Assembly (NCBI RefSeq): GCF_000711245.1
Contig: NZ_JOMH01000001.1
Coordinates: forward strand, 3,342,830 to 3,406,829
Direction of reading: 5' to 3'
DNA length: 64,000 nucleotides
DNA from: Polycyclovorans algicola TG408
GTDB taxonomy: Bacteria > Pseudomonadota > Gammaproteobacteria > Nevskiales > Nevskiaceae
Shown: positions 798-20,695 of the stretch, one piece after another
Numbering within the stretch: position 1 is the first letter of the stretch
Layout of the letters: the number at the start of each line of letters is the position of its first letter
Notes under the pieces: generated by a model
Databases searched by the model: none
The model's input: only the letters and a program-made list of their open reading frames with translations
Told to the model about the DNA's origin: nothing
Translations under genes and position numbers: made by a program

Positions 798-1409
798 ATG
801 ATCAAACTTATTAATACATTTCGTTTGAAGGCCACTCGGCAGGGTTCAACCCAATACGGCGCCACATTCTGGTTGCGCGCATCAGCGCTGTCGGTCGCCG
901 CCGCCGTGACAGTGGCCGGCGCGGCGTGGGCCAAAGAAGCACGCTTTGAATTTTATTTTTACTTTCAGGAGCCGGAAGAATTTTTGTCCGAACACTTTGG
1001 CGCAACGCCGCCATCGCCTTCCGTCTTGGCCATTGAAGGTGACAAGAAGGAGGCCGTTCGCGACGTTTTCGAACGCTATTACCCCGATCCGCGCATGCGC
1101 TATTGGAGCGCCGATGGCTACACCGCGTGGATCTTCGACGACCTTGGAAAGAAGGGCTATCAGCCGACCACCAGCGCGTTTCTGGTCAAGGATGGCGAAA
1201 TCATCGACGCCCAGGTGCTGGTTTATCGCGAGTCACGCGGTCAGGAAGTTGGCGAAGAGTTCTTCCTTGAACAGCTCAAGGGCGCCAAGGCCGACGGTAA
1301 GGGCCTGACCGTCGAAGTGGACGCCATCACCGGCGCCACGGAGTCGGTTTACATGATGCAGCGCATGGCGCGCACCGCCATCACGCTCGATGCCTTGGTC
1401 AAGGAGTGA
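798..1409 (+). CDS. Exported FMN-binding domain protein (ApbE flavinylation substrate)
   Basis: A 203-residue protein with a signal peptide or anchor (hydrophobic residues about 25-44, ending GAAWAKE) and a C-terminal FMN-binding domain of the RnfG/NqrC type. The signature DAITGATES near residue 180 fits the D-x-x-(S/T)-G-A-T motif whose threonine receives FMN by phosphodiester linkage from ApbE. The expected role is one-electron transfer on the periplasmic side. Its stop is followed 4 bp later by the PepSY-type membrane gene, with the SD (AAGGAG) inside its last codons, so the two are translationally linked. The final acceptor is unknown; the neighbouring globin and the receptor suggest haem, NO/O2 or ferric iron. 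Confidence 0.75.
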   Translation: MIKLINTFRLKATRQGSTQYGATFWLRASALSVAAAVTVAGAAWAKEARFEFYFYFQEPEEFLSEHFGATPPSPSVLAIEGDKKEAVRDVFERYYPDPRMRYWSADGYTAWIFDDLGKKGYQPTTSAFLVKDGEIIDAQVLVYRESRGQEVGEEFFLEQLKGAKADGKGLTVEVDAITGATESVYMMQRMARTAITLDALVKE

Positions 1410-1413
1410 GCCC

Positions 1414-2313
1414 ATGTCACCGAGCTCCGCTGGCAACGCGCAACCCAAACTCCCCGCCGAGTCGGGCTCGAAAGGCCGTTTCCGCGCGATGATGCCCCGA
1501 CGGCTTCGGCAGTGGCGGTCGCGCAAGGGCGTCAAGACTGCACCGGGTCGCAGCAATGTTGGGATGTTTTTGCGCCAGTGGCACAAACGCGCGGGCCTTG
1601 CCGCGTTCATCTTCATGATTTGGCTCGGCGCCAGCGGCTTTTTGATCAACCAGAGTTCTGCCTGGGGCTACGACACGGCCCGAATTGACTGGACCTGGAT
1701 TACCGGACTGTACGGACTCAGGGCATCACCGCCGAAAAAGGGCTTTGTCGGCGCCGACGGCTGGGTGGCCAAGTCTGGAGACGTGGTCGCACTCGACGGC
1801 GCAGCACTGCCGTTTGAGATGCCCACGCCGCTGGGCGTAGTGTCCAGCGACGCGGGCGGCGAGGTGCTGTTGTTTATTGCCACTCGCGAAGCGCTCTACG
1901 CCGTGAAGCCGACCGGTGAACTCTACGAGCGGATGAGCTCACCCATCATTCCGGTCCGCGAGTTGTTGCGTGTCGGTACGCAGGCCTCCACCGTGGTCAT
2001 CGACAGCCCGGAAGGGCGTTTCGCAAGCAACGACGGGGGTCTGAGTTGGACGCCGCAAGCCGACGACACCAACGTAACGTGGTCAGAGCCAACTGACCTC
2101 ACCGAGGACCAGCGCGAAATGCTGGCGCCCTTCTCGCGTCCCAGCATGTCGCTGGAACAAACCCTGCTCGACCTGCACAGCGGCCGCATCTTTGGCGACA
2201 CTGGCGTGTGGGTGGTCAATATCGTCGGCATCCTGGCGATCTGGCTGGGCATCAGCGGCGTATGGATGACCTGGCGCATCAGCCGGCAGATGAACAACCG
2301 TCGCGGTCCCTGA
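1414..2313 (+). CDS. PepSY-associated transmembrane protein
   Basis: A 299-residue inner-membrane protein. A basic N-terminal tail (about 50 residues) precedes TM1 (GLAAFIFMIWLGASGFLI). A periplasmic region of about 170 residues follows, then the LLDLHSGRIFG motif and a C-terminal TM helix (VVNIVGILAIWLGISGVWM) typical of PepSY-TM proteins. Such proteins are found with flavinylated FMN-binding proteins and siderophore-iron reductases, where they are thought to carry electrons across the membrane. Histidines in TM1 (QWHKR) and before the last TM (DLHSG) could be haem ligands; that is inference. ATG 1414 is chosen because AAGGAG lies 7 bp upstream. Confidence 0.7.
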   Translation: MSPSSAGNAQPKLPAESGSKGRFRAMMPRRLRQWRSRKGVKTAPGRSNVGMFLRQWHKRAGLAAFIFMIWLGASGFLINQSSAWGYDTARIDWTWITGLYGLRASPPKKGFVGADGWVAKSGDVVALDGAALPFEMPTPLGVVSSDAGGEVLLFIATREALYAVKPTGELYERMSSPIIPVRELLRVGTQASTVVIDSPEGRFASNDGGLSWTPQADDTNVTWSEPTDLTEDQREMLAPFSRPSMSLEQTLLDLHSGRIFGDTGVWVVNIVGILAIWLGISGVWMTWRISRQMNNRRGP

Positions 2314-2608: not shown

Positions 2609-2640
2609 GCACCGTTGCCGTGCGCGCACCCCCGACGTGC
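2609..2640 (+). promoter_or_regulatory. Two tandem NtrC-like binding dyads
   Basis: GCACC-GTTGC-CGTGC (2609-2623) and GCACC-CCCGA-CGTGC (2626-2640) each match the NtrC consensus GCACY-N5-RGTGC at nine of ten half-site positions. They are 17 bp apart and lie roughly 80-100 bp upstream of the predicted sigma-54 start, the usual enhancer distance. Confidence 0.5.
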
Positions 2641-2687
2641 GTCTGAAAAGGGCGCGCGACCCCCTGCATGCACCATGCGGAAGCACT

Positions 2688-2703
2688 TGGCACGCGGGTT
2701 GCG
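2688..2703 (+). promoter_or_regulatory. Sigma-54 promoter of the porin leader
   Basis: TGGCAC-GCGGG-TTGCG matches the -24/-12 consensus TGGCAC-N5-TTGCW except for the last base. Transcription would start near 2714, about 40 nt before the double-hairpin leader. Confidence 0.7.
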
Positions 2704-2755
2704 ATAGCTGTCCCACGTGAGGCAGGACAGGCTGCCCGCTACCAACACAAACATC

Positions 2756-2832
2756 GTTCTGCGCCAAAGGCGGCCGGAACCCCAGGACAACGCCGTCCAT
2801 CGATGCCCCTGGGGTGTCGGTGGATTTTTTTT
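2756..2832 (+). promoter_or_regulatory. ANTAR (NasT)-target leader: two hexaloop hairpins plus intrinsic terminator
   Basis: Hairpin P1 (2756-2780) has loop AAAGGC and a bulged C three pairs below it. Hairpin P2 (2785-2798) is GGAC-AACGCC-GTCC. Both loops carry the A1 and G4 recognised by ANTAR proteins. The 3' arm of P2 (2795-2798) is also the 5' arm of a terminator stem (2796-2808 with 2812-2824, a few wobbles) followed by eight T. P2 and terminator are therefore mutually exclusive: bound NasT should hold P1-P2 and let polymerase pass. NasT and NasS are encoded at 19092-20695. Confidence 0.75.
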
Positions 2833-3110
2833 GGAACTCACCCATGCACAACCCCCTTGAACGCACGACGGCCTGCGCCCGAACGCGCCAAACATTGACC
2901 GGCCAGCCACGCGGGTCACCACCCCCTAGCGGCTGACCCACCGGGCCCGGCGCCACGCGCCCGGGGACCGGAGACACGCCCGCTGACCTGAGGGCGTCAT
3001 CAACCCGACGAACCCCCGTCGCCGCGACCCCGTATCGCGCCGCGCCGGTCCGGTCGTGGGCGATGGTCGCCTCAGGGCCGCGACATCTGCTGTACCGCCG
3101 TACACGGAAC
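2833..3110. other. Untranslated stretch between ANTAR leader and porin
   Basis: No convincing gene. A 30-codon frame starts at ATG 2844 but has no ribosome site and a Pro/Thr/Arg-rich composition. The stretch is read as a long 5' UTR; a second promoter for the porin was not found in it. Confidence 0.35.
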
Positions 3111-3163
3111 CCGAACGCCAGTGCCGGCGGGTCGGCCCCGTTGACCGAAGGGCAATGGCGCCC
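3111..3163 (+). promoter_or_regulatory. Second, degenerate ANTAR-like hairpin pair next to the porin start
   Basis: Hairpin 3111-3135 closes on loop AGTGCC with a 4-bp upper stem, an internal mismatch and a 4-bp lower stem. Hairpin 3150-3163 is GGGC-AATGGC-GCCC. Both loops keep A1 and G4. A GC hairpin (3169-3184) and a pyrimidine run (3196-3210) follow, but no clean terminator overlaps the second hairpin. It is a weaker candidate than the pair at 2756. Confidence 0.35.
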
Positions 3164-3226
3164 GTTGTCGGCCTGCACCGGCCGGAACACCGACCTTTCT
3201 TATCTCTTTTGCAGGAGTCCATAGAC

Positions 3227-4429
3227 GTGAAGCATCGTTTGGCAGTGGCAGTACTCGGCAGCACCCTGGCTTTCGGCAGTCTCCCCGGCGTCTCTGCAGC
3301 ACCCGCACCCGGTTCACGCTTAGAGGCGGCCCTTAGCGGCGGCACCGTGAACCTTGACCTGCGGCTGCGCTACGAAGGCGTCGCGCAGGACAACGCGCTG
3401 GAGGACGCCGACGCGCTCACCGTGCGCACGGTGTTGGGCTATACCACCCAGTCTTGGAACGGCCTGAGCGGCTTTGTCGAAATGGAAAACGTCAACGCGC
3501 TGGTCGATGACTATTCCGGCGTGCCCCCGCCCGCACAGCATTCGGTGGTGCCCGACCCCGAGGGCACCGAGGTCAACCAGTGGGGGTTTCGCTACACCGG
3601 CATCAAAAATCTGGTTGCCACCGTGGGGCGCAGCAAGCTCATCCTCGACAACGCCCGCTGGGTGGGCAACGTCGGCTGGCGGCAAAACGAACAGACCTAC
3701 GACGGCTACTTTTTGAAGGCCACGCCGCTGGCCGGAGTGACGCTCAACGGCGCGTTCATCACCAACATCAACAGCATTTTTTTCACCAACATTGACCTTG
3801 AAGGCGTCTTGCTCAACGCCCAGTGGGTGGCCGTGCCGGCCCTAACGCTGACCGCCTACGCCTACCTGCTGGACTACGAACTGATCACCGCCGCCACGCC
3901 CGACCCCGACACCGTCGGCCTGCGCGCCACCGGCGGCGTGCCGCTGACACCCGCAGTCAAGCTCAGCTATGTGGCCGAATTTGCGCGCCAGGACGGCACG
4001 CTGATGACCGGCGAATTCGACGCCGACTACCTGCTGGGCGAGCTGGCGCTGGGGTTCAAGGGCATCTCGCTGGCGCTGGGCTACGAGCTGCTTGGCAGCG
4101 ACGGCGGCAACTACGCGGTGCAAACCCCGCTGGCCACGCTGCACGCCCACAACGGCTGGAATGACCTGTTTCTGGTGACGCCGCTGACCGGCCTGCAAGA
4201 CACCTACATTCGCCTCAGCGGCAGCATCGGCAAGGTGGCGTGGATGGCCAAGTACCATGAGTTCAGCGCCGACGAAGGCAATGCCGACTACGGCCGTGAG
4301 TTCAACGTACAGGTCACCCGGCCGCTGGTTGGCAAGCTCAATGGCGGGCTGAAATACGGCACCTATTCAGCCGACAGCCTGGCGGTGGACACCGACAAGT
4401 TGTGGGCGTGGCTGGGCTATTCGTTCTGA
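3227..4429 (+). CDS. Outer-membrane porin, alginate-export-type barrel; probable nitrate-regulon porin
   Basis: A 400-residue protein starting at GTG 3227 with AGGAG nine bases upstream; this start opens directly with a signal peptide (KHRLAVAVLGSTLAF, cut near VSA-AP). The mature part is a run of amphipathic strands: VNLDLRLRYEG, a WGFRYTGIKNL segment, LILDNARWVGNVGWRQNEQTYDG, and a final WAWLGYSF ending in Phe. These features fit the alginate-export/OprD-like channel group found in many soil and water bacteria; actual substrate cannot be read from the family. The upstream DNA carries a sigma-54 promoter, NtrC-like sites and a NasT-type leader matching those of nrtA, so a role in passage of nitrate or nitrite through the outer membrane is inferred. 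Confidence 0.75.
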   Translation: MKHRLAVAVLGSTLAFGSLPGVSAAPAPGSRLEAALSGGTVNLDLRLRYEGVAQDNALEDADALTVRTVLGYTTQSWNGLSGFVEMENVNALVDDYSGVPPPAQHSVVPDPEGTEVNQWGFRYTGIKNLVATVGRSKLILDNARWVGNVGWRQNEQTYDGYFLKATPLAGVTLNGAFITNINSIFFTNIDLEGVLLNAQWVAVPALTLTAYAYLLDYELITAATPDPDTVGLRATGGVPLTPAVKLSYVAEFARQDGTLMTGEFDADYLLGELALGFKGISLALGYELLGSDGGNYAVQTPLATLHAHNGWNDLFLVTPLTGLQDTYIRLSGSIGKVAWMAKYHEFSADEGNADYGREFNVQVTRPLVGKLNGGLKYGTYSADSLAVDTDKLWAWLGYSF

Positions 4430-4455
4430 AGCAAGCTCAGTCCACACGGCAAGGT

Positions 4456-4521
4456 CGTCGGGCTGGGGCCCGACCTACGGAGCGGTTTCCACCGCTTCCG
4501 TAGGTCGGCATTCATGCCGAC
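4456..4521. repeat. Cluster of three hairpins between convergent genes
   Basis: GTCGGGC-TGGG-GCCCGAC (4457-4474), CCTACGGAGCGG paired with CCGCTTCCGTAGG (4475-4504) and GTCGGCA-TTCA-TGCCGAC (4504-4521) follow each other. The related ACCTACGG/CCGTAGGT ends suggest a REP-like element. It lies between the convergent porin and TonB-receptor genes and may stop transcription from both sides, though it lacks T-runs. Confidence 0.55.
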
Positions 4522-4530
4522 GAGCGCCGC

Positions 4531-6912
4531 TCAGAACTCCCAGCCAAACTTCACGCCATAAATGCGCGGCTGGCCGGCAAAGCCGACGATGGTGCTGCCC
4601 AGAGCATTCACCGTGCGGCGGTATTCCTCATCCAGCGCGTTGGTCATGAAGCCGGTGACGCGCCACTGGTCCTGCGCATAAACCACCCGCAAGTCGAGCA
4701 GGCCGTAGCTGCTTTCTTCCGACAGCGGAATGCCGGAGCCGAAGCGGTTGTCGCCCTGGCCAGGCTCAAAGTAGAAATCGCTGAGCCAGGCGTAGTCGGC
4801 GCGCATGGTCAGCTCGCCGCGACCCAGTTCGAAGTAGGTTTCGGCGCCCAGACTCAGGGTGTTGTCGGGCGCACGAACCAGGTCGGTGCCCGAGAAATTG
4901 AGGTCCTGTTCGGCACTGAACACGTAGTCCTCGTAGGTGGCATCCAGATGGCCGTAGCTGAGATTCAGATCGAGGTGCTGATTGACCCGCACCAGGAACT
5001 CCAGATCCAGACCCATGACTTCACTCGATGCGGCGTTGCTGATCAGACTGACCGGCGCGCCGCCGGCGTCGATGATGCGTGACACCTGCAGGTCTTCATA
5101 ATCGTAGGTGAACACTGCCATGTTCAGCTGCGCACGGCCGCCGAACAGGCGCGACTTGTAGCCGATCTCCCAGGCTTCGATTTCTTCGGGCTCGAACAGC
5201 ACGTTGGCCTGCGCCGCCGAGAACGGCACGTACTGGAAGCCGCCGCTCTTGAAGCCAGTGCTGTAGCTGGCGTAGACGCTCTGGTCAGGCGTGAGCTTGA
5301 AGTTGGCGACGACGCGCGGGTCCAGCGAATCGTAATCGGCCTTGTTGAACACCTGAAAATCGGTGGCGATGATCGGCGCCGCGTCGGTGGTGGTGCCGGT
5401 CTGGGTGGCCTCCTTGTCATCGCGGGTGTAGCGCAGGCCCAAGGTCAGGTCCAGCCGCTCGGTCAGGTGCGCGGTGACTTCAGAGAAGAGGGCGTAGCTG
5501 GTGATCTTGTAGTCCGAGCTGGCCACGTCCAGCGCCGGGGTGCCGGCGGCGGCCCGCACCGCGCTGTCGACGCCGATGAAGAACTGGTCTTCACGCGTAC
5601 TGCGGTCGTCGTAGTAGAAGCCGCCCACAATCCAGTCGAGAAAGCCGTTCATCGAGAAGGCGCCGTCGGCGTTGGACGCGATGCGGAGTTCCTGGGTGAA
5701 TTGGTCGGACTCTTCGGCACTGAACTGGTCGATGACCGACAGCGACGAACCTTCCAGGTCGCGTCCGTCCTCGATGTCCAGCGTGCGGAAAGCGCTCACC
5801 GAGGTCAGGGTGACGTCGCCCAGATCCCAGTTCACCCGTCCCACATAAGCGCGCGCGTCGCGATCCAGCGTGGGGTCGGTGTCGGCCGTGCCGCGGCGCA
5901 GATCAGGGTTGGCCACCGCCGCGGTGCCGGCAGGGGTGAAAAAGGTGGCAGTCGGGTTGGCCGGATCACCGGCCGCCGAGGGCCCGGTGCCCTGGTTGAA
6001 GCCACCAAACGCCGCTTCGTTGCCGTCGTGCAGCGTTTCCACACTCAGGTCGATGCGCAGCGCGTCGCTGGGCAGATAGGCCAACCGGAAGCGGCCACCC
6101 GTGTTGTCGACGCCCTGGAAGCTGTTGCCGGTGGCCAGGTTGGTCACGTAGCCATCACGATAGGCGTGCCAACCGGCGACCCGAAATTGCAGGTTGCCGG
6201 ATTCATTCAACGGCCCGCCGGCGGCGGCAAAAGCTTCGTTACCGCCGAAGTTGCTGATGCCGAATTCGCCCTCACCCTCAAACTCCGGCGTCGGGCCCTT
6301 GCTGACGATGTTGATTGCGCCGCCAATGGTGTTGCGGCCATACAGCGTGCCCTGCGGGCCGCGCAGCACTTCGATGCGTTCGATGTCCTTGAGCGCGCCG
6401 AATGAGCCGGTGGAGCGCCCCAGGTAAACCTCGTCGGCAAACACGCCGACCGAACTCTCAGAGCCGGGGTCGAACGAGCGGGTGCCGATGCCGCGAATGT
6501 ACAACTGCGGACGCGCGGCGCCGAAGCTGCCGAAGTAAACGCTGGGGACGCGCGGCGCGACGTTCTCGATGGACTCGATGCCCAAGCCGCGCACCTTGTC
6601 GTCGGTGAACGCTGACAGGGCAATGGGAATGTCCTGTGCCCGCTGCTCGCGCTTCTGCGCGGTGACCACGATCTCTTCAATGGCGTAGTCGTTGCGCGGC
6701 GCGGGGGCCGCCTCGGCCTCGGCCGGTTCAGGCGAGGTCGCCGGGGCCGCCTCGTCGGCACCCGTCGAGGACTCGAACTCGTCCCAGTCGATTTCACCCT
6801 CGCCGCCCTGGGCGTGAAGGCTGGGACCATAAAGTGAGGCCGCACACGCGGCGATCGACAACACGGTGACGCGACGAACAACCCGCTCGGCGGGTGAATG
6901 CTTCTTGGCCAT
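4531..6912 (-). CDS. TonB-dependent outer-membrane receptor
   Basis: A 793-residue receptor with signal sequence (residues about 1-35, ending LHAQGG), an acidic linker rich in Glu/Ala/Pro, the TonB box region EEIVVTAQKREQ, a plug domain with LYIRGIGTRS, IERIEVLRGPQGTLYGRNT and GGAINIVSK, and a 22-strand barrel ending GVKFGWEF. The start at 6912 follows a strong SD (GGGAGGAGAG) and begins MAKKHSP. The plug pattern is that of the CirA/iron-complex-type receptors common in Sphingomonadales and Nevskiales. The gene diverges from nrtA across 538 bp, so it may share regulators with nitrate genes, but no ANTAR leader or Fur box was seen on its side. Substrate unknown. Confidence 0.9.
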   Translation of the reverse strand: MAKKHSPAERVVRRVTVLSIAACAASLYGPSLHAQGGEGEIDWDEFESSTGADEAAPATSPEPAEAEAAPAPRNDYAIEEIVVTAQKREQRAQDIPIALSAFTDDKVRGLGIESIENVAPRVPSVYFGSFGAARPQLYIRGIGTRSFDPGSESSVGVFADEVYLGRSTGSFGALKDIERIEVLRGPQGTLYGRNTIGGAINIVSKGPTPEFEGEGEFGISNFGGNEAFAAAGGPLNESGNLQFRVAGWHAYRDGYVTNLATGNSFQGVDNTGGRFRLAYLPSDALRIDLSVETLHDGNEAAFGGFNQGTGPSAAGDPANPTATFFTPAGTAAVANPDLRRGTADTDPTLDRDARAYVGRVNWDLGDVTLTSVSAFRTLDIEDGRDLEGSSLSVIDQFSAEESDQFTQELRIASNADGAFSMNGFLDWIVGGFYYDDRSTREDQFFIGVDSAVRAAAGTPALDVASSDYKITSYALFSEVTAHLTERLDLTLGLRYTRDDKEATQTGTTTDAAPIIATDFQVFNKADYDSLDPRVVANFKLTPDQSVYASYSTGFKSGGFQYVPFSAAQANVLFEPEEIEAWEIGYKSRLFGGRAQLNMAVFTYDYEDLQVSRIIDAGGAPVSLISNAASSEVMGLDLEFLVRVNQHLDLNLSYGHLDATYEDYVFSAEQDLNFSGTDLVRAPDNTLSLGAETYFELGRGELTMRADYAWLSDFYFEPGQGDNRFGSGIPLSEESSYGLLDLRVVYAQDQWRVTGFMTNALDEEYRRTVNALGSTIVGFAGQPRIYGVKFGWEF

Positions 6913-7183: not shown

Positions 7184-7209
7184 GGTGCATTGACGCACCG
7201 ATCCGGTGC
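7184..7209 (+). promoter_or_regulatory. NtrC-binding dyad upstream of nrtA
   Basis: GCACC-GATCC-GGTGC (7195-7209) is a perfect match to the NtrC consensus GCACY-N5-RGTGC and overlaps a second palindrome GGTGC-ATTGAC-GCACC (7184-7199). It is centred about 130 bp before the predicted sigma-54 start. A T-run follows, so it resembles a terminator, but its place ahead of the promoter favours an enhancer. Confidence 0.65.
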
Positions 7210-7305: not shown

Positions 7306-7321
7306 TGGCACGAAGCCTGCT
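7306..7321 (+). promoter_or_regulatory. Sigma-54 promoter of the nrt-nir-nas operon
   Basis: TGGCAC-GAAGC-CTGCT differs from TGGCAC-N5-TTGCW at one base. The GC at 7319-7320 predicts a start near 7332, three bases before hairpin P1 of the leader, which is the compact layout expected for an ANTAR-controlled transcript. Confidence 0.7.
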
Positions 7322-7334
7322 TAGCTGTACCCGA

Positions 7335-7435
7335 CAGTGGCCAACGGCGGCGCTGACTCGCAACACCCTGCCGACGCAGGCCCCCAGGACAACGGCGTCC
7401 ATGCACGACTCTTCCGTGCATGGACGCTTTTTTTT
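7335..7435 (+). promoter_or_regulatory. ANTAR (NasT)-target leader of nrtA with overlapping terminator
   Basis: Hairpin P1 (7335-7355) and hairpin P2 (7387-7400, GGAC...GTCC) both expose the loop AACGGC, with A1 and G4. P1 has a bulged G three pairs below its loop, as in the porin leader. A small hairpin (7367-7380) sits in the 31-nt linker. The 3' arm of P2 forms part of a perfect 13-bp terminator stem (7395-7407 with 7415-7427) followed by eight T (7428-7435), only 15 bp before the nrtA start. NasT binding should therefore permit read-through when nitrate has freed it from NasS. Confidence 0.8.
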
Positions 7436-7450
7436 GCTCAGAGGATTTAC

Positions 7451-8866
7451 ATGACGCTCCATTTCTTGCGCATCACCCGACGCTTGGCCACTGCAGCCCT
7501 GCTGACAGCCACGATGGTCGGCTGCGGTGACAAGGCCGCCACCCCCGAGGCCGTCACACCCGCCACCGCAAGCACGCCGCTGGCGCTGGAAAAGTCAGAG
7601 ATCAAACTCGGCTTTATCAAGCTCACCGACATGGTGCCGCTGGCCATTGCCTACGAAAAAGGCTACTTCGAAGACGAAGGTCTGTTCGTCACGCTGGAAG
7701 CGCAGGCCAACTGGAAAGTGCTGCTCGACCGGGTGATTTCGGGCGAACTCGATGGTGCCCACATGCTGTCGGGCCAGCCACTGGGCGCGACCATCGGCTT
7801 CGGCACCAAAGCGGACATCATCACCGCCTTCGCGATGGACCTGAACGGCAACGCCATCACCGTGGCCAACACTGTTTGGGACGAGATGAAACCGAACGTG
7901 CCGATGGAAGACGGTAAGCCGGTGCACCCGATTCGTGCCGATGCCCTGAAACCGGTCATCGAGGCGCGCAAGGCCGAGGGTGAATCGTTCAAGATGGGCA
8001 TGGTATTTCCGGTGTCGACGCACAACTACGAGCTGCGTTACTGGTTGGCGGCGGCGGGCATTCACCCCGGCTTTTACGCACCACAGCGGGGGGATGTTTC
8101 CGGCCAATTGCTGGCCGACGTGCTGCTGTCGGTCACGCCACCGCCGCAAATGCCGGCGACCTTGGAGGCCGGCACCATTCTCGGTTACAGCGTTGGCGAA
8201 CCGTGGAACCAGCAGGCGGTGTTTCGCGGCATTGGCGTGCCGGTGATTGCCGACATCGATATCCGCAACAACGTCTCCGAGAAGGTGTTGGGCGTTAGCC
8301 AGGCGTGGGCCGACAAGAATCCCAAAACCCATATCGCCATGGTCAAGGCATTGATCCGCGCCGGCCACTGGCTCGACGCCAACGACAACGCCAACCGCGA
8401 GGAGGCGGCCCGCATCATCTCGGCCTCGACCTATGTCGGCGCCGACTACGAGGTCATTGCCAACAGCATGACCGGCGTCTTCGAGTACGAGAAAGGCGAT
8501 GTACGCCCGGCGCCGGACTTCAACGTCTTCTTCCGCTATCACGCCACCTACCCTTACACCTCTGATGCCGTCTGGTACCTCACGCAAATGCGCCGCTGGG
8601 GCCAGATCCCCGACGCGAAGCCGGACAGCTGGTATCTGGAAACCGCCAAGAAGGTGTTCCGTGCCGACATCTATCAGCAGGCGGCCGAGGCGCTGATTGC
8701 CGACGGCGTGATGCAGGCCAGCGACTTTCCCGACTTTGCCAGCGAGACCGGCTTTCGCCCGGTCACCCACACCACCTTCATCGACGGCCACGGCTACGAC
8801 GGCCGCCAACCCAACGCCTACCTCGAACAGTTCGACATTGGCCTGAAAGGAGACGACACGCCATGA
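7451..8866 (+). CDS. nrtA: Nitrate/nitrite ABC transporter substrate-binding lipoprotein (NrtA/NasF type)
   Basis: A 471-residue periplasmic binding protein. The N terminus has a lipoprotein signal with a TMVGC lipobox (Cys at about residue 25), then the NrtA/SsuA/ThiY-like fold: [63 protein letters not shown] and [12 protein letters not shown]. These are hallmark NrtA/NasF/CmpA blocks. It captures nitrate or nitrite and passes it to NrtB. The start at 7451 follows AGAGGA and lies just after the leader terminator. The stop overlaps the nrtB start by ATGA. A cyanate or bicarbonate ligand is possible in this family, but the neighbouring nir and nas genes fix nitrate as the likely one. Confidence 0.92.
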
Positions 8867-9867
8867 GCCTCGCCGCTTCGATTTCTTCGGCCACCGCCTC
8901 AGCGTTGCGACAGCGGCTGGCGGCCCTGCAAATGCCAGCCTTGGCGCCCTTGGCCAAGAGCGTTGCCTTGCCGGTGATGGGCCTGCTGGTGATGTTGCTG
9001 GTCTGGGAGCTGGGCGCGCGGCAGGTGCAGACCTCACTCGGCGCCCTGCCCGGTCCGGTCGCCGTCTGGGAGCAGGCCGGCAACCTGTGGGACGAGCATC
9101 GCGCCGAGCGTGACAAGGCAGACGCCTTTTACGCGCGACAGGACGTGCGCCACGCCGAGCAGCTGGCGGCCAACCCCGAGGCCGAGCTGCGCTTTCGCAG
9201 CTATCCCGGCAAGGCGACCTTTGTGGATCAGATTGGCACCAGTCTGTTCACGGTGATGAGTGGTTTCTTTCTGGCCTCACTGATCGCCATTCCCCTGGGC
9301 ATCGCCATCGGTCTTTCGCCGACGCTGTACGCCATGTGCAACCCGGTGACTCAGTTGCTGAAGCCGGTCTCGCCATTGGCATGGCTGCCCATCGTCACGC
9401 TGGTGGTGAGCGCGGTTTACGTGAGCGACGACCCGGCGGTGTCGAAGTCTTATCTGGTGTCGATGCTGTGCGTGATGCTGTGCTCCATCTGGCCGACCCT
9501 GGTCAACACGGCCGTTGGCGCCTCCACCGTGTCCAGTGACCTGGTGAGCGTCTCTCGCGTGCTGCGTCTGCACGCGCTCAGCCATGTTTGGCGCGTGGTG
9601 CTGCCCAGCGCCATTCCGATGATTTTCGCCGGCCTGCGCACCTCGCTGGGCGTCGCGTGGATGGTGCTCATCGCCTCCGAAATGCTCGCCCAAAACCCCG
9701 GCCTCGGCAAATTCGTCTGGGATGAATTCCAGAACGGTTCGTCGGCCTCGCTGGGCCGGATCATGGTCGCGGTCATCGCCATCGGCCTGATCGGTTTCGC
9801 CCTCGACCGGACCATGTTGTGGCTGCAACGCAACGTGAGCTGGGACAAAAACGCGGTACTGCGATGA
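8863..9867 (+). CDS. nrtB: Nitrate ABC transporter permease (NrtB/NasE type)
   Basis: A 334-residue inner-membrane permease. TM1 is near residues 35-55; a periplasmic/cytoplasmic insert rich in charged residues (about 75-120) follows, then five further TM helices. The EAA loop that contacts the ATPase is seen as [34 protein letters not shown]. The family usually has about 270-340 residues, so length is normal. It forms the channel through which nitrate delivered by NrtA enters the cytoplasm. It overlaps nrtA by 4 bp, so the two are translationally coupled; the ATPase gene follows after a 226-bp repeat-filled gap. Confidence 0.92.
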
Positions 9868-14307: not shown

Positions 14308-15157
14308 TCGGCGAAGAGGGGCTCAGCACTGAGGCGCTGAACCTCGTACAACCTCGTCATGCCGGACTTGATCCGGCATCCAGGGTTCTGGTGATGCGCA
14401 TGGGCGTTTCAAGTGGCTTTGACGCTCGTTCTGCAAGCTTGCCTTTCGCCTTGCGGGGCGAGTCACTTTTCTTTGCTTGCCCAAAGAAAAGGCCACCGCG
14501 ACACGGTGCGTGCGAAAGCACGACGGTGCGGGATCGGGGGCATGGCGGCGTGAGGCGGCCTCTGCGATTGCGGTGGCATGCGCGGCTAATCCCGCACCCA
14601 CGCTGCGCGGCACCGTGGAGTAGCCGCCAAAAGAAAGGGCACCCCACTTCAGGTGCCGGCTGCGCCGGTTCCCGAGCCTGCCGCTGTGCTCGGGGTCGGG
14701 CCGATGCGACGTCCTGTCGCACGGCCCTAAGCGGGCCATCCACGGCCCGCTTACCCCTGCGCGCAGCGACAGGCTCGGCACCTTCAGACGGGGCCCAAAG
14801 TCAAAGGCGGCTGCAAATTTCGTCGCGCACGTGCTTTTCGGGTCCCCTTCGAGACGGAGCGGTGGGCGCAGCGCGCGCAATGGGGCAGCCGGACAGGGAC
14901 GTCCGGCTGAGCCGCAGTCACGACAGGATGTCGTGTTGCGGCGACCCCAAGCACGCGAGCACCAGCGCGTGCCCGCGCAGCGGGACCGTAACGAGGGGCG
15001 TGCTTTCTTTTGCTTACTTTTCTTTGCACGAGCAAAGAAAAGTAAGGCGCCCCACAGGGCGAAAAGGGCACCCTCAAAACGAGCGCCCAGGCTCCTTGAA
15101 ACCCCCGCGAGGACAGCGCCTGGAAAACAAAACCGCGCTTGCGGCGAAGTGCCCTCC
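14308..15157. repeat. 850-bp repeat-rich spacer inside the nitrate locus
   Basis: No gene is supported here; open frames on both strands are Arg/Gly/Ala-rich and lack ribosome sites. The DNA holds a small palindrome ATGCCGGA-CTTGA-TCCGGCAT (14359-14379), a hairpin CTTTTCTTTG/CAAAGAAAAG (14466-14491) and a perfect 15-bp hairpin CTTACTTTTCTTTGC with its complement (15013-15046). Between the two AT-rich hairpins are about 520 bp of dense GC inverted repeats, such as AGCGGGCC/GGCCCGCT (14731-14752). The layout resembles the spacer at 46987-47806. A promoter for the downstream nas genes might lie in it but was not recognised. Confidence 0.6.
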
Positions 15158-19091: not shown

Positions 19092-19661
19092 ATGCGCGTA
19101 ATGCTGGTCGACGACCATCCCGAACGGTTGGCCCTGCTCGAAGACGCCCTGACGGCGGCCGGGCATGTCGTGGCCGGCCACGTCAGCACCCGGGACCCGC
19201 TGGTCGCAGCGGTGCAACTGCACAAGCCCGACATCGTGCTGATTGACGTCGACGCGCCCAGCCGCGACACCCTGGAATCGCTGGTGCAGGTCAAACGGGA
19301 TCAGCCCTGCCCGGTGGTGATGTTTGCCGCACATTCCGACAACGACACCATTCGCCGCGCCATCCACGCCGGTGTGAGCGCCTACGTGGTTGACGGCCTG
19401 GCCACCAACCGTATCCAGTCGGTGATGGACGTGGCGATTGCCCGTTTCGCCGAGTTTCGCGCGCTGCAGCAAGAGCTGGATGACACCCGCCTGAAGTTGG
19501 CCGACCGCCGCGACGTCGATAAGGCCAAGGGCCTGCTGATGCAGCGTCGCGGCCTGGATGAAGCCGCCGCCTATGCCTTGCTCAGGCGCATGGCCATGAG
19601 CCGTAACCTGCGCCTCGGTGATGCCGCGCGCGCCCTGATTTCCGCCGCGGAGCTGCTCTGA
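19092..19661 (+). CDS. nasT: ANTAR-domain antitermination regulator NasT
   Basis: A 189-residue two-domain regulator. The N-terminal pseudo-receiver domain (MRVMLVDDHPERLALLEDAL, DIVLIDVDAPSRDTLE) matches NasT/AmiR; the C-terminal ANTAR domain begins near LADRRDVDKAKGLLMQRRGLDEAAAYALLRRMA and binds double-hexaloop RNA. NasT held by NasS is inactive; nitrate releases it and it stops termination in nitrate-assimilation leaders. Two matching leaders exist in this window (2756-2832 and 7335-7435). The start at 19092 follows CGGAG. Its stop overlaps the nasS start (TGATG), ensuring stoichiometric synthesis. Confidence 0.93.
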   Translation: MRVMLVDDHPERLALLEDALTAAGHVVAGHVSTRDPLVAAVQLHKPDIVLIDVDAPSRDTLESLVQVKRDQPCPVVMFAAHSDNDTIRRAIHAGVSAYVVDGLATNRIQSVMDVAIARFAEFRALQQELDDTRLKLADRRDVDKAKGLLMQRRGLDEAAAYALLRRMAMSRNLRLGDAARALISAAELL

Positions 19662-20695
19662 TGCACGAACCTGAAACAAGCCGTCTGCGGATGGGCCTTG
19701 TGCCACTGGTGGACTGCGCACCGGTCGTGGTGGCACGCGAACGTGGCTTCTTTGCGCGGCACGGTCTCGACGTGATCCTTTCAGTGGAAGGTTCGTGGGC
19801 CGGCATCCGCGACAAACTGGCCGCCGGCCTGCTCGATGCCGCGCAGGTGCTGGCGCCGATGCCGCTGGCGGCGCAACTGGGGCTCGACGGCTTCGGCGTG
19901 CCGCTGGTCTCGGCGCTGACGCTGAGCCGCAACGGCAACATGATCACCGTCTCCAACGCCCTGCACGCGGCGCTGGCCAGCGCCGGACCCGATGCCACCG
20001 CCAAGGGACAGGCGCTGCACGCACTGCTGGCCCAGGACCGCGCCGAAGGGCGGCGGCCTCGGGTGCTGGCGCACGTCTATCCGCATTCGTCGCATCACTT
20101 TTTGCTGCGAGAGTGGCTGGGCAACGCCGGTATCGATGCCGACCGCGATCTGCAGTTGACGAGTATTCCGCCGCCGCTGCTGGTGCATTGTCTGCGCACC
20201 GGACAAATCGACGGCTTTTGCGCCGGCGCGCCCTGGGGCATGGCGGCCGAAGCGGCGGGCGTGGGCCGCAACCTGCTCGCTACGTGCCGGGTACGGCCCG
20301 ACTGCGTCGAAAAAGTGCTGGGCGTGCGCAGTGAGTGGGCCGAGCGCCATCCGCAAGCCCACCTTCATCTGATTGCCGCACTCATCGAAGCCGGCCAGTG
20401 GCTGGAACGCGACGGCCATCGCACAGAGGCCGCACGCATCCTTGCGGCGGGCGCCTATCTGGACGTGTCGCCCGAGATCCTGCAGGCGGCGCTCACCGAA
20501 GACCGCGACGGGCCGCTTAATCCGGGCTGCCGCTTCTCCAGTGACGATCTCGGGGCGCCCCGCGCCGACGACATGGCGTGGCTTGAAGACCAGTTGCAGG
20601 ACTGGGGCGGCGTGCCGGTGTCGCCGTCCACCGTCCTGAGCCGGTGTTACCGCGCCGACCTGCATCAGCAGGCCCTGGCGTATTGCACGCCCTAG
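19661..20695 (+). CDS. nasS: Cytosolic nitrate sensor NasS
   Basis: A 344-residue NrtA-like protein without a signal peptide: LRMGLVPLVDCAPVVVARERGFFARHGLDV, HVYPHSSHHFLLREWL, IDGFCAGAPWGM. The NrtA fold retained in the cytosol is the mark of NasS, which binds nitrate/nitrite and sequesters NasT in their absence. Compared with the NrtA at 7451 it is about 130 residues shorter, missing the signal and several insertions. Overlap with nasT supports the pair. It is the last gene of the nitrate locus; no clear terminator was seen in the 86 bp before the convergent gene. Confidence 0.92.
   Translation: MHEPETSRLRMGLVPLVDCAPVVVARERGFFARHGLDVILSVEGSWAGIRDKLAAGLLDAAQVLAPMPLAAQLGLDGFGVPLVSALTLSRNGNMITVSNALHAALASAGPDATAKGQALHALLAQDRAEGRRPRVLAHVYPHSSHHFLLREWLGNAGIDADRDLQLTSIPPPLLVHCLRTGQIDGFCAGAPWGMAAEAAGVGRNLLATCRVRPDCVEKVLGVRSEWAERHPQAHLHLIAALIEAGQWLERDGHRTEAARILAAGAYLDVSPEILQAALTEDRDGPLNPGCRFSSDDLGAPRADDMAWLEDQLQDWGGVPVSPSTVLSRCYRADLHQQALAYCTP

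Follow-up and report, generated by a model that had tools for sequence, protein, structure and literature searches.

The window analysed here is a 64-kb stretch (64,000 nucleotides) of the 3.65-Mb single-contig genome of Polycyclovorans algicola TG408 (G000:C1:3342830-3406829); positions refer to it unless another sequence is named. In order, it carries genes for a globin with a signal-peptide-like start, an FMN-binding protein, a PepSY protein and a porin, followed by a minus-strand gene that was named by eye as TonB-dependent-receptor-like and then by nrtA. The run that begins there continues with nrtB, nrtC, nirB, nasB-type and narB-type reductases, nasT and nasS, the labels of these nitrate genes being assigned from Pfam domains and gene order.

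The porin gene (3227-4429, + strand) encodes 400 amino acids from a GTG start preceded by AGGAG, and the protein begins, as judged by eye, with a signal-peptide-like segment. The nrtA-type periplasmic binding protein (NMT1_2; 7451-8866, +) heads the nrtABC-nirB-nasB-narB-nasTS run. At its far end, nasT (19092-19661, +) carries the sole ANTAR domain detected genome-wide and overlaps by one base the gene for a nasS-type nitrate sensor (19661-20695, +), whose label comes from its position and from homologues that adjoin nasT, curated models matching it weakly. At the gathering threshold, Rfam gave a single match in the window, a TwoAYGGAY RNA away from the porin leader, in the interval that separates the nirBD genes from the nasB-type reductase (14882-14948, +; 51.1 bits, gathering 43). 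A PHROGs search returned no match.

Promoters and RNA leaders upstream of the porin and nrtA

An earlier note on this DNA had placed tandem NtrC-like dyads and a near-consensus sigma-54 promoter before the porin, and both are present. Two GCAC-N7-GTGC dyads (2609-2623 and 2626-2640, both +) lie 48-79 nt upstream of the sigma-54 promoter match, and a GCACC-N5-GGTGC dyad (7195-7209, +) precedes nrtA. The GCAC-N7-GTGC pattern is common in this GC-rich window and is not enriched across it (4 found versus 4.8 expected); three of the four occurrences are found just upstream of the porin and nrtA promoters. The putative sigma-54 promoter of the porin (about 2688-2703, +; TGGCACGCGGGTTGCG) has GG and GC elements at -24 and -12 with correct spacing and contains the TGGCACG-N4-YTGC match TGGCACGCGGGTTGC, and that of nrtA lies at 7306-7320 (+; TGGCACGAAGCCTGC). 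On both strands of the 64 kb there are exactly two TGGCACG-N4-YTGC matches, at 2688 before the porin and at 7306 before nrtA, where 0.26 would be expected and where two or more appeared in 1 of 100 shuffles.

Downstream of the porin promoter lies the RNA element that the same note had likened to the one before nrtA, with a P1/P2 hexaloop pair, a shared bulge position and an overlapping terminator ending in eight T, and each of these parts was recovered. P1 (2756-2780, +) reads GTTCTG-C-GCC[AAAGGC]GGC-CGGAAC, with the hexaloop at 2766-2771 and one bulged base on the 5' side (C2762), three pairs below the loop. P2 (2785-2798, +) is GGAC[AACGCC]GTCC, with its hexaloop at 2789-2794. The intrinsic terminator (2795-2832, +) has a stem at about 2795-2825 and a T8 run at 2825-2832; its 5' arm includes the 3' arm of P2 (2795-2798), which makes P2 and terminator mutually exclusive. 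The nrtA leader (7306-7435) has a matching anatomy: P1 (7335-7355, +), with hexaloop AACGGC and the bulge placed as in the porin P1; P2 (7385-7403, +), also with hexaloop AACGGC; and a terminator with T8 (7394-7435, +), the 3' arm of P2 again forming part of its 5' arm. All four hexaloops have A in the first and G in the fourth position.

Passages of PMC3369931 describe ANTAR leaders as a pair of hairpins, each with an A1/G4 hexaloop, followed by an intrinsic terminator whose formation is blocked by antitermination, and passages of PMC5424462 cover both the anatomy of NasT leaders and the control of nasT by NtrC. Upstream of the porin we find tandem A1/G4 hexaloops and an exclusive terminator, with an ANTAR regulator encoded in the genome and the gene itself starting 394 nt further on; judged by anatomy, the porin RNA element is a canonical ANTAR leader of the NasT type.

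A descriptor combining P1, P2 and an overlapping terminator, written after both leaders were known and applied to both strands, matched three sites in the window. These are nrtA (score 64), the porin (62) and a third site at 47.6 kb (57) in a non-nitrate stretch, which is probably due to chance. In 100 dinucleotide-preserving shuffles the mean was 0.05 matches, and none reached a score of 62. RNA folding of 2705-2850 shows P1 and the terminator; since the fold energy has a z of only -1.70 and 9 of 200 shuffles fold equally well, fold energy alone is no proof of a leader.

Genome-wide search for leaders and their regulators

Because the descriptor had been written after seeing both leaders, the genome was also searched with a covariance model, R2, that contains no sequence from this genome. 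R2 was built from six leaders originally found by the descriptor (three from genome G035, two from G001 and one from a Verrucomicrobiales contig), one row being imperfectly aligned in P1. When 150 of 1888 first-look candidates were scored, the porin leader (genome position 3345586, the match spanning 2757-2802 of the window) ranked third with an E-value of 0.0023, after sites at 3339119 (-) and 3339432 (+). The fourth match, elsewhere in the genome, had an E-value of 0.285, and the nrtA leader, which has a long linker, came fifth (E 0.31).

A further leader at genome position 3341714 is absent from this R2 ranking (16 bits; E 0.05 over 70 kb) and was found by the descriptor and by a second model, R1, that was trained on it; R1 includes four leaders of this genome, and its E-values for them hold by construction. 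With 3341714 included, the five leaders found in the genome all lie within about 11 kb, beside nitrate genes. A covariation count (alignment A2) was biased, its ten rows having been picked for possessing the stems, and is not counted as evidence.

The genome encodes exactly one ANTAR protein, NasT (ANTAR domain at genome positions 3362311-3362469), so that the reader of the porin leader, if it is an ANTAR protein, would be NasT. One NtrC scores above the curated cut-off, and two RpoN-type proteins or genes are present.

Other leaders in the genome

The neighbouring locus L136 (G000:C1:3337830-3343830) holds a NasT-type leader at 3885-3928, before a gene for a DUF3034 protein (4025-5065). Together with a sigma-54-like site, it heads the order DUF3034, globin, FMN_bind and PepSY, the last three being the genes at 143-2313 of the window. 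The same order is found with a leader (L055 11168) in the porin-free genome G001, and in G035 and G037 leaders precede DUF3034 homologues. The best model matches of the genome are two back-to-back leaders of L136 at 1290-1334 (-) and 1603-1646 (+). The minus-strand leader precedes a pair of TPR-like proteins, and the other an OmpA-cytochrome c fusion, after which comes a cupredoxin. Both sides have homologues in G001, G035 and G004, where one leader each was found, before the TPR side in G001 and G035 and before the OmpA-cytochrome side in G004. An envelope redox module of unexplained role (TPR, OmpA-cytochrome and cupredoxin) seems to belong to the NasT regulon, and at least four of the five leaders found in the genome head envelope or accessory genes.

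A second hexaloop pair in the gap before the porin

Between the T-run and the porin start lie 394 nt, a gap that the earlier note did not mention. It contains no other gene, and its sequence occurs once in the genome. Six-frame tblastn and blastn comparisons with the fetched loci gave nothing convincing as a decayed gene. Within the gap we found a second hexaloop pair (3116-3167, +), made up of CGCC[AGTGCC]GGCG (3116-3129) and GGGC[AATGGC]GCCC (core 3150-3163), with loops at 3120 and 3154 and a linker of 16 nt. It is the only A1/G4 pair with good stems in the gap, was equalled in 3 of 500 gap shuffles and scores 12 bits with R2. Its P2 core GGGCAATGGCGCC agrees letter for letter with the P2 of the porin leaders of two relatives (G008 and G027) and is located 73 nt upstream of the start codon, close to where P2 stands in relatives. 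No terminator was recognised in the gap, including with the second pair, and no strong sigma-54 match was found there.

The complete leader differs from those of relatives in position and linker. Its P2 is 438 nt from the start codon, whereas in the nine relatives where P2 was detected together with a terminator it stands 93-158 nt before the porin match. P1 and P2 are separated by 4 nt; the linker measures 4, 5 and 7 nt in the DUF3034, OmpA-cytochrome and TPR leaders of the same genome and 19-29 nt in the porin leaders of seven relatives. The second pair is probably the remnant of an older, decaying porin leader, and from these comparisons we infer that the complete short-linker leader may have been acquired upstream of it.

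Conservation of the leader, promoter and neighbourhood

The porin is present in 23 of the 61 genomes searched, P. algicola included, and its nearest named relative belongs to a Polycyclovorans metagenome-assembled genome (L056, the same as G002). In that genome a cyanate-type cluster (L056 6446-11749), comprising genes like nrtA, nrtB and nrtC together with a cynS homologue at 9340, lies directly upstream of the leader, the porin and nrtABC. Nitrate genes (nas, nrt, nir or nar) were found on the fetched stretch, within at most about 10 kb, in 21 of the 22 relatives, the remaining one (G028) being represented by a 5-kb contig. For a few relatives the link is slender: it consists solely of NasT homologues at a distance of about 6 kb in G037, of nasT on a short contig in G018 and of narK in G029, while G007 has narK with the respiratory narG. 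A frequent order is nasT-porin-nrtA-nrtB-nrtC-nirB.

In 17 of the 23 loci, the window being one of them, the 600 nt upstream of the porin contain a sigma-54 site with a score of 10 or more out of 12, versus 0.049 expected per locus from the remainder of the same loci; at a score of 11 or better, the count is 12 of 23 versus 0.022. By reading of the sequences, at least 3 of the 17 sites (G040, G018 and G029) fall inside the preceding gene. P2 with an overlapping terminator was found in the same 600 nt in 10 of the 23 loci, the window included, versus 0.014 expected per locus, and 8 of these 10 also have a P1 candidate. The leader, on whose recurrence before homologous porins the earlier note had staked its reading, is thus found in part of the relatives and not absent from all of them.

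In the other 13 loci the P2-terminator rule found nothing near the porin. By eye, loops accompanied by a terminator-like hairpin are visible upstream in G013 and G035, whereas G037 and G030 show loops whose terminator is not clear. R2 matches G013 and G030 weakly. Further weak R2 matches stand before narK in G034 and G029, where narK itself precedes the porin. The genome with the third-nearest porin (G026, L034) has a leader before nrtA and none before the porin, on a contig that begins 1.3 kb before it. G001, of the same genus, has nrtABC and NasT and lacks the porin, so that the pathway does not always require it.

A wider sample of the family comprised 80 named loci, the best 80 of at least 576. 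In this sample the strict descriptor placed a leader before the porin in five: L056 (G002), L064 (Chromatiaceae), L069 (Verrucomicrobiales), L072 (Halopseudomonas oceani) and L132 (Porticoccus). Over 2.78 Mb of strand sequence it made 13 matches, and several of these resemble chance hits. An ANTAR protein is encoded in 22 of the 23 genomes with the porin and in 23 of the 38 porin-free genomes (Fisher p 0.0024, kinship ignored).

The porin and its family

Pfam assigned the window porin to no family at E 0.001. Alginate_exp (PF13372) matches 21 of 21 aligned porins at E 0.1 or better (best 4e-11), the window porin itself scoring 17.2 bits, under the cut-off of 25.2. The Opr family models NF033922 and NF033923 match 18 and 13 of the 21 aligned porins at E 0.1 and give the window porin 17.4 and 14.2 bits, where the cut-offs are 150 and 100. 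A search of solved structures with the porin profile returned only VanP, not significantly (E 0.12).

A quick maximum-likelihood tree of 98 porins places the window porin in a set of 22 (SH-aLRT 97), 21 of which are labelled nitrate-linked, a few only through a NasT homologue or narK. The remaining member, that of G007, lies between narK and narG. The label ('nas' in the tree) was set by hand from neighbourhood matches; over the whole tree it requires 17 changes versus 33 in shuffles, and on this tree it is clustered, yet appears to have been gained or lost several times. The tree left out L056, L077 and L078, which come from the same genomes as relatives, and the alignment lacked the porins of G036 (L018) and G028 (L023/L024).

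Outside this clade, nrtABC is found on either side of the porin, narG near it in L068, L090 and L118, and napA, for the periplasmic nitrate reductase, in L092, L097 and L105. In L097, napA was identified by a curated model, and the porin lies about 0.5 kb downstream of it. Genes for cynS and a formate/nitrite transporter stand beside the porin in L122, with homologues about 5 kb away in L082. By loose, hand-set thresholds, 41 of the 80 stretches have a nitrogen-oxyanion gene; in the other 39, many of them on short contigs, no such gene was recognised. About half of the wider family, in these best 80 of at least 576 loci, thus occurs in other contexts.

A proposed role for the porin in nitrate uptake

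The earlier note had assigned the porin to the regulon of nrtA. The rank of its leader with R2, the single ANTAR protein, the presence of NtrC and RpoN, the leaders and sigma-54 sites of relatives and the nitrate neighbours in 21 of 22 of them all bear this out, and as a prediction from genomes the same-regulon reading is supported. Its extension to function, that the porin is a member of an NtrC/sigma-54/NasS-NasT regulon and also the outer-membrane entry for nitrate and/or nitrite, is in our judgement likely. That nitrate or nitrite passes through the barrel is what the gene neighbourhood suggests.

Under nitrogen limitation, phosphorylated NtrC bound at 2609-2640 would activate RpoN polymerase at 2688-2703, and the transcript would begin about 43 nt before P1. 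By default the terminator would stop it at 2832. In the presence of nitrate or nitrite, NasS would release NasT, whose ANTAR domain would grip both A1/G4 hexaloops; P2 would then form at the expense of the terminator, and the polymerase would read through into the porin. These steps of NtrC-P activation, default termination, NasT release by nitrate or nitrite and read-through follow NasT biology as given in the accessible portions of PMC5424462 and PMC6759348. The anion arriving in the periplasm would then be imported by NrtABC, the first gene of which, nrtA, carries the same kind of leader as the porin.

The leader could also act on a porin with another task. The protein might be a general channel, or one for organic acids, oligosaccharides, cyanate or other solutes, that is induced on nitrate for permeability balance or nitrite exit, for example. 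The weak similarity to Alginate_exp and Opr family porins, families of varied substrates, would suit such a channel, as would family members beside cynS and the formate/nitrite transporter (L122; L082) or beside nrdD (L106) and members for which the queries recognised no nitrate gene at all. Against it stand the porin's own clade, with its nitrate link in 21 of 22 and G007 between narK and narG, and the way in which assimilatory, respiratory (narG) and periplasmic (napA) nitrate genes recur as neighbours across the family, and we consider it unlikely.

Doubt may also be directed at the leader itself. If 2756-2832 were the relic of a lost gene or served a small RNA, the porin having its own promoter, the unusual length of the 394-nt gap would be accounted for, as would a 4-nt linker nearer to the DUF3034, OmpA-cytochrome and TPR leaders (4, 5 and 7) than to the porin leaders of relatives (19-29), and the second hexaloop pair, nearer the porin, could be the true control element. 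However, the gap holds no remnant of the genes compared, no other gene, no recognised terminator and no strong sigma-54 match, and a relic seems very unlikely. Moreover, the second pair is itself of the NasT type, so that NasT would control the porin in both cases. That the hairpins arose by chance or artefact in a GC-rich intergenic stretch can draw on the mildly low fold energy (z -1.70) and on an NtrC pattern that is not enriched window-wide. We regard this as barely conceivable: none of 100 shuffles reaches the score, the R2 E-value is 0.002 genome-wide (150 of 1888 candidates scored), the only two sigma-54 sites in 64 kb lie at the porin and nrtA leaders, and these elements are conserved in relatives. 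Chance hairpins were rejected on the shuffles and on R2, a model free of the genome's own sequence.

If the porin is indeed the outer-membrane entry for nitrate and/or nitrite, it would extend ANTAR antitermination to the outer membrane. The crossing of this membrane by nitrate at low concentration is usually ascribed to general porins; a porin that shares its type of nitrate-responsive leader with the ABC transporter is a named candidate for a dedicated outer gate, and the finding would suggest a function for porins whose family models say nothing on nitrate. More tentatively, and with somewhat less confidence than doubt, we propose a widespread family of dedicated nitrogen-oxyanion porins in Gram-negative bacteria, with barrels near Alginate_exp. 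Its members would lie beside assimilatory (nrtABC, narK, nirB), respiratory (narGK), periplasmic (napA) and cyanate (cynS) genes in Gammaproteobacteria, Betaproteobacteria and Verrucomicrobiota, and in several lineages would be under NasT antitermination, nitrate sensing gating nitrate's own entry across the outer membrane.

Comparison with known systems

Antitermination of this kind is known for NasT, NasR and EutV leaders. A. vinelandii nas reportedly has a NasT-type ANTAR leader, with two A1/G4 hexaloop hairpins before a terminator, and the NasT and NasR leaders of K. oxytoca nasF, P. denitrificans nasA and A. vinelandii nas show the same A1/G4 hairpins and terminator as the porin leader. 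Whereas their targets are reductases or inner-membrane transporters, the target here is an outer-membrane porin. Among protein families, Alginate_exp (PF13372; AlgE) is one to which the porin comes near. AlgE has an 18-strand barrel fold; the window porin falls under the cut-off of the model, and its neighbourhood is one of nitrate uptake.

The earlier note had held that no porin is well described as a NasT target. This agrees with the best-ranked papers of the open-access literature, in which we found no porin under NasT control and no match to 'nitrate porin', and with passages of PMC6759348 and PMC5424462. For B. diazoefficiens, the NasT regulon as presented in those passages of PMC6759348 includes no 'porin' and one outer membrane protein, which is up in the nasT mutant. 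In P. putida, as reported in excerpts of PMC3325844, OprF (PP2089) increases when nitrogen is limiting, and a nitrate transporter and a nitrate-binding protein (PP2092 and PP2094) have locus tags close to that of OprF, which is possibly another porin in a nitrate neighbourhood.

What is new therefore seems to be the target class of the NasT leader, an outer-membrane porin. A nitrate-regulated porin as such is already known: OpdQ of Pseudomonas aeruginosa, according to the consulted text of PMC4694141, is an outer-membrane porin whose transcription rises with nitrate via NarXL at low oxygen. The two are alike in being outer-membrane porins responsive to nitrate, in the present case by prediction. 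In contrast to OpdQ, as characterised there, which belongs to the OprD family and responds through NarXL under low oxygen, the porin described here would be controlled by NtrC and RNA antitermination, in the service of assimilation.
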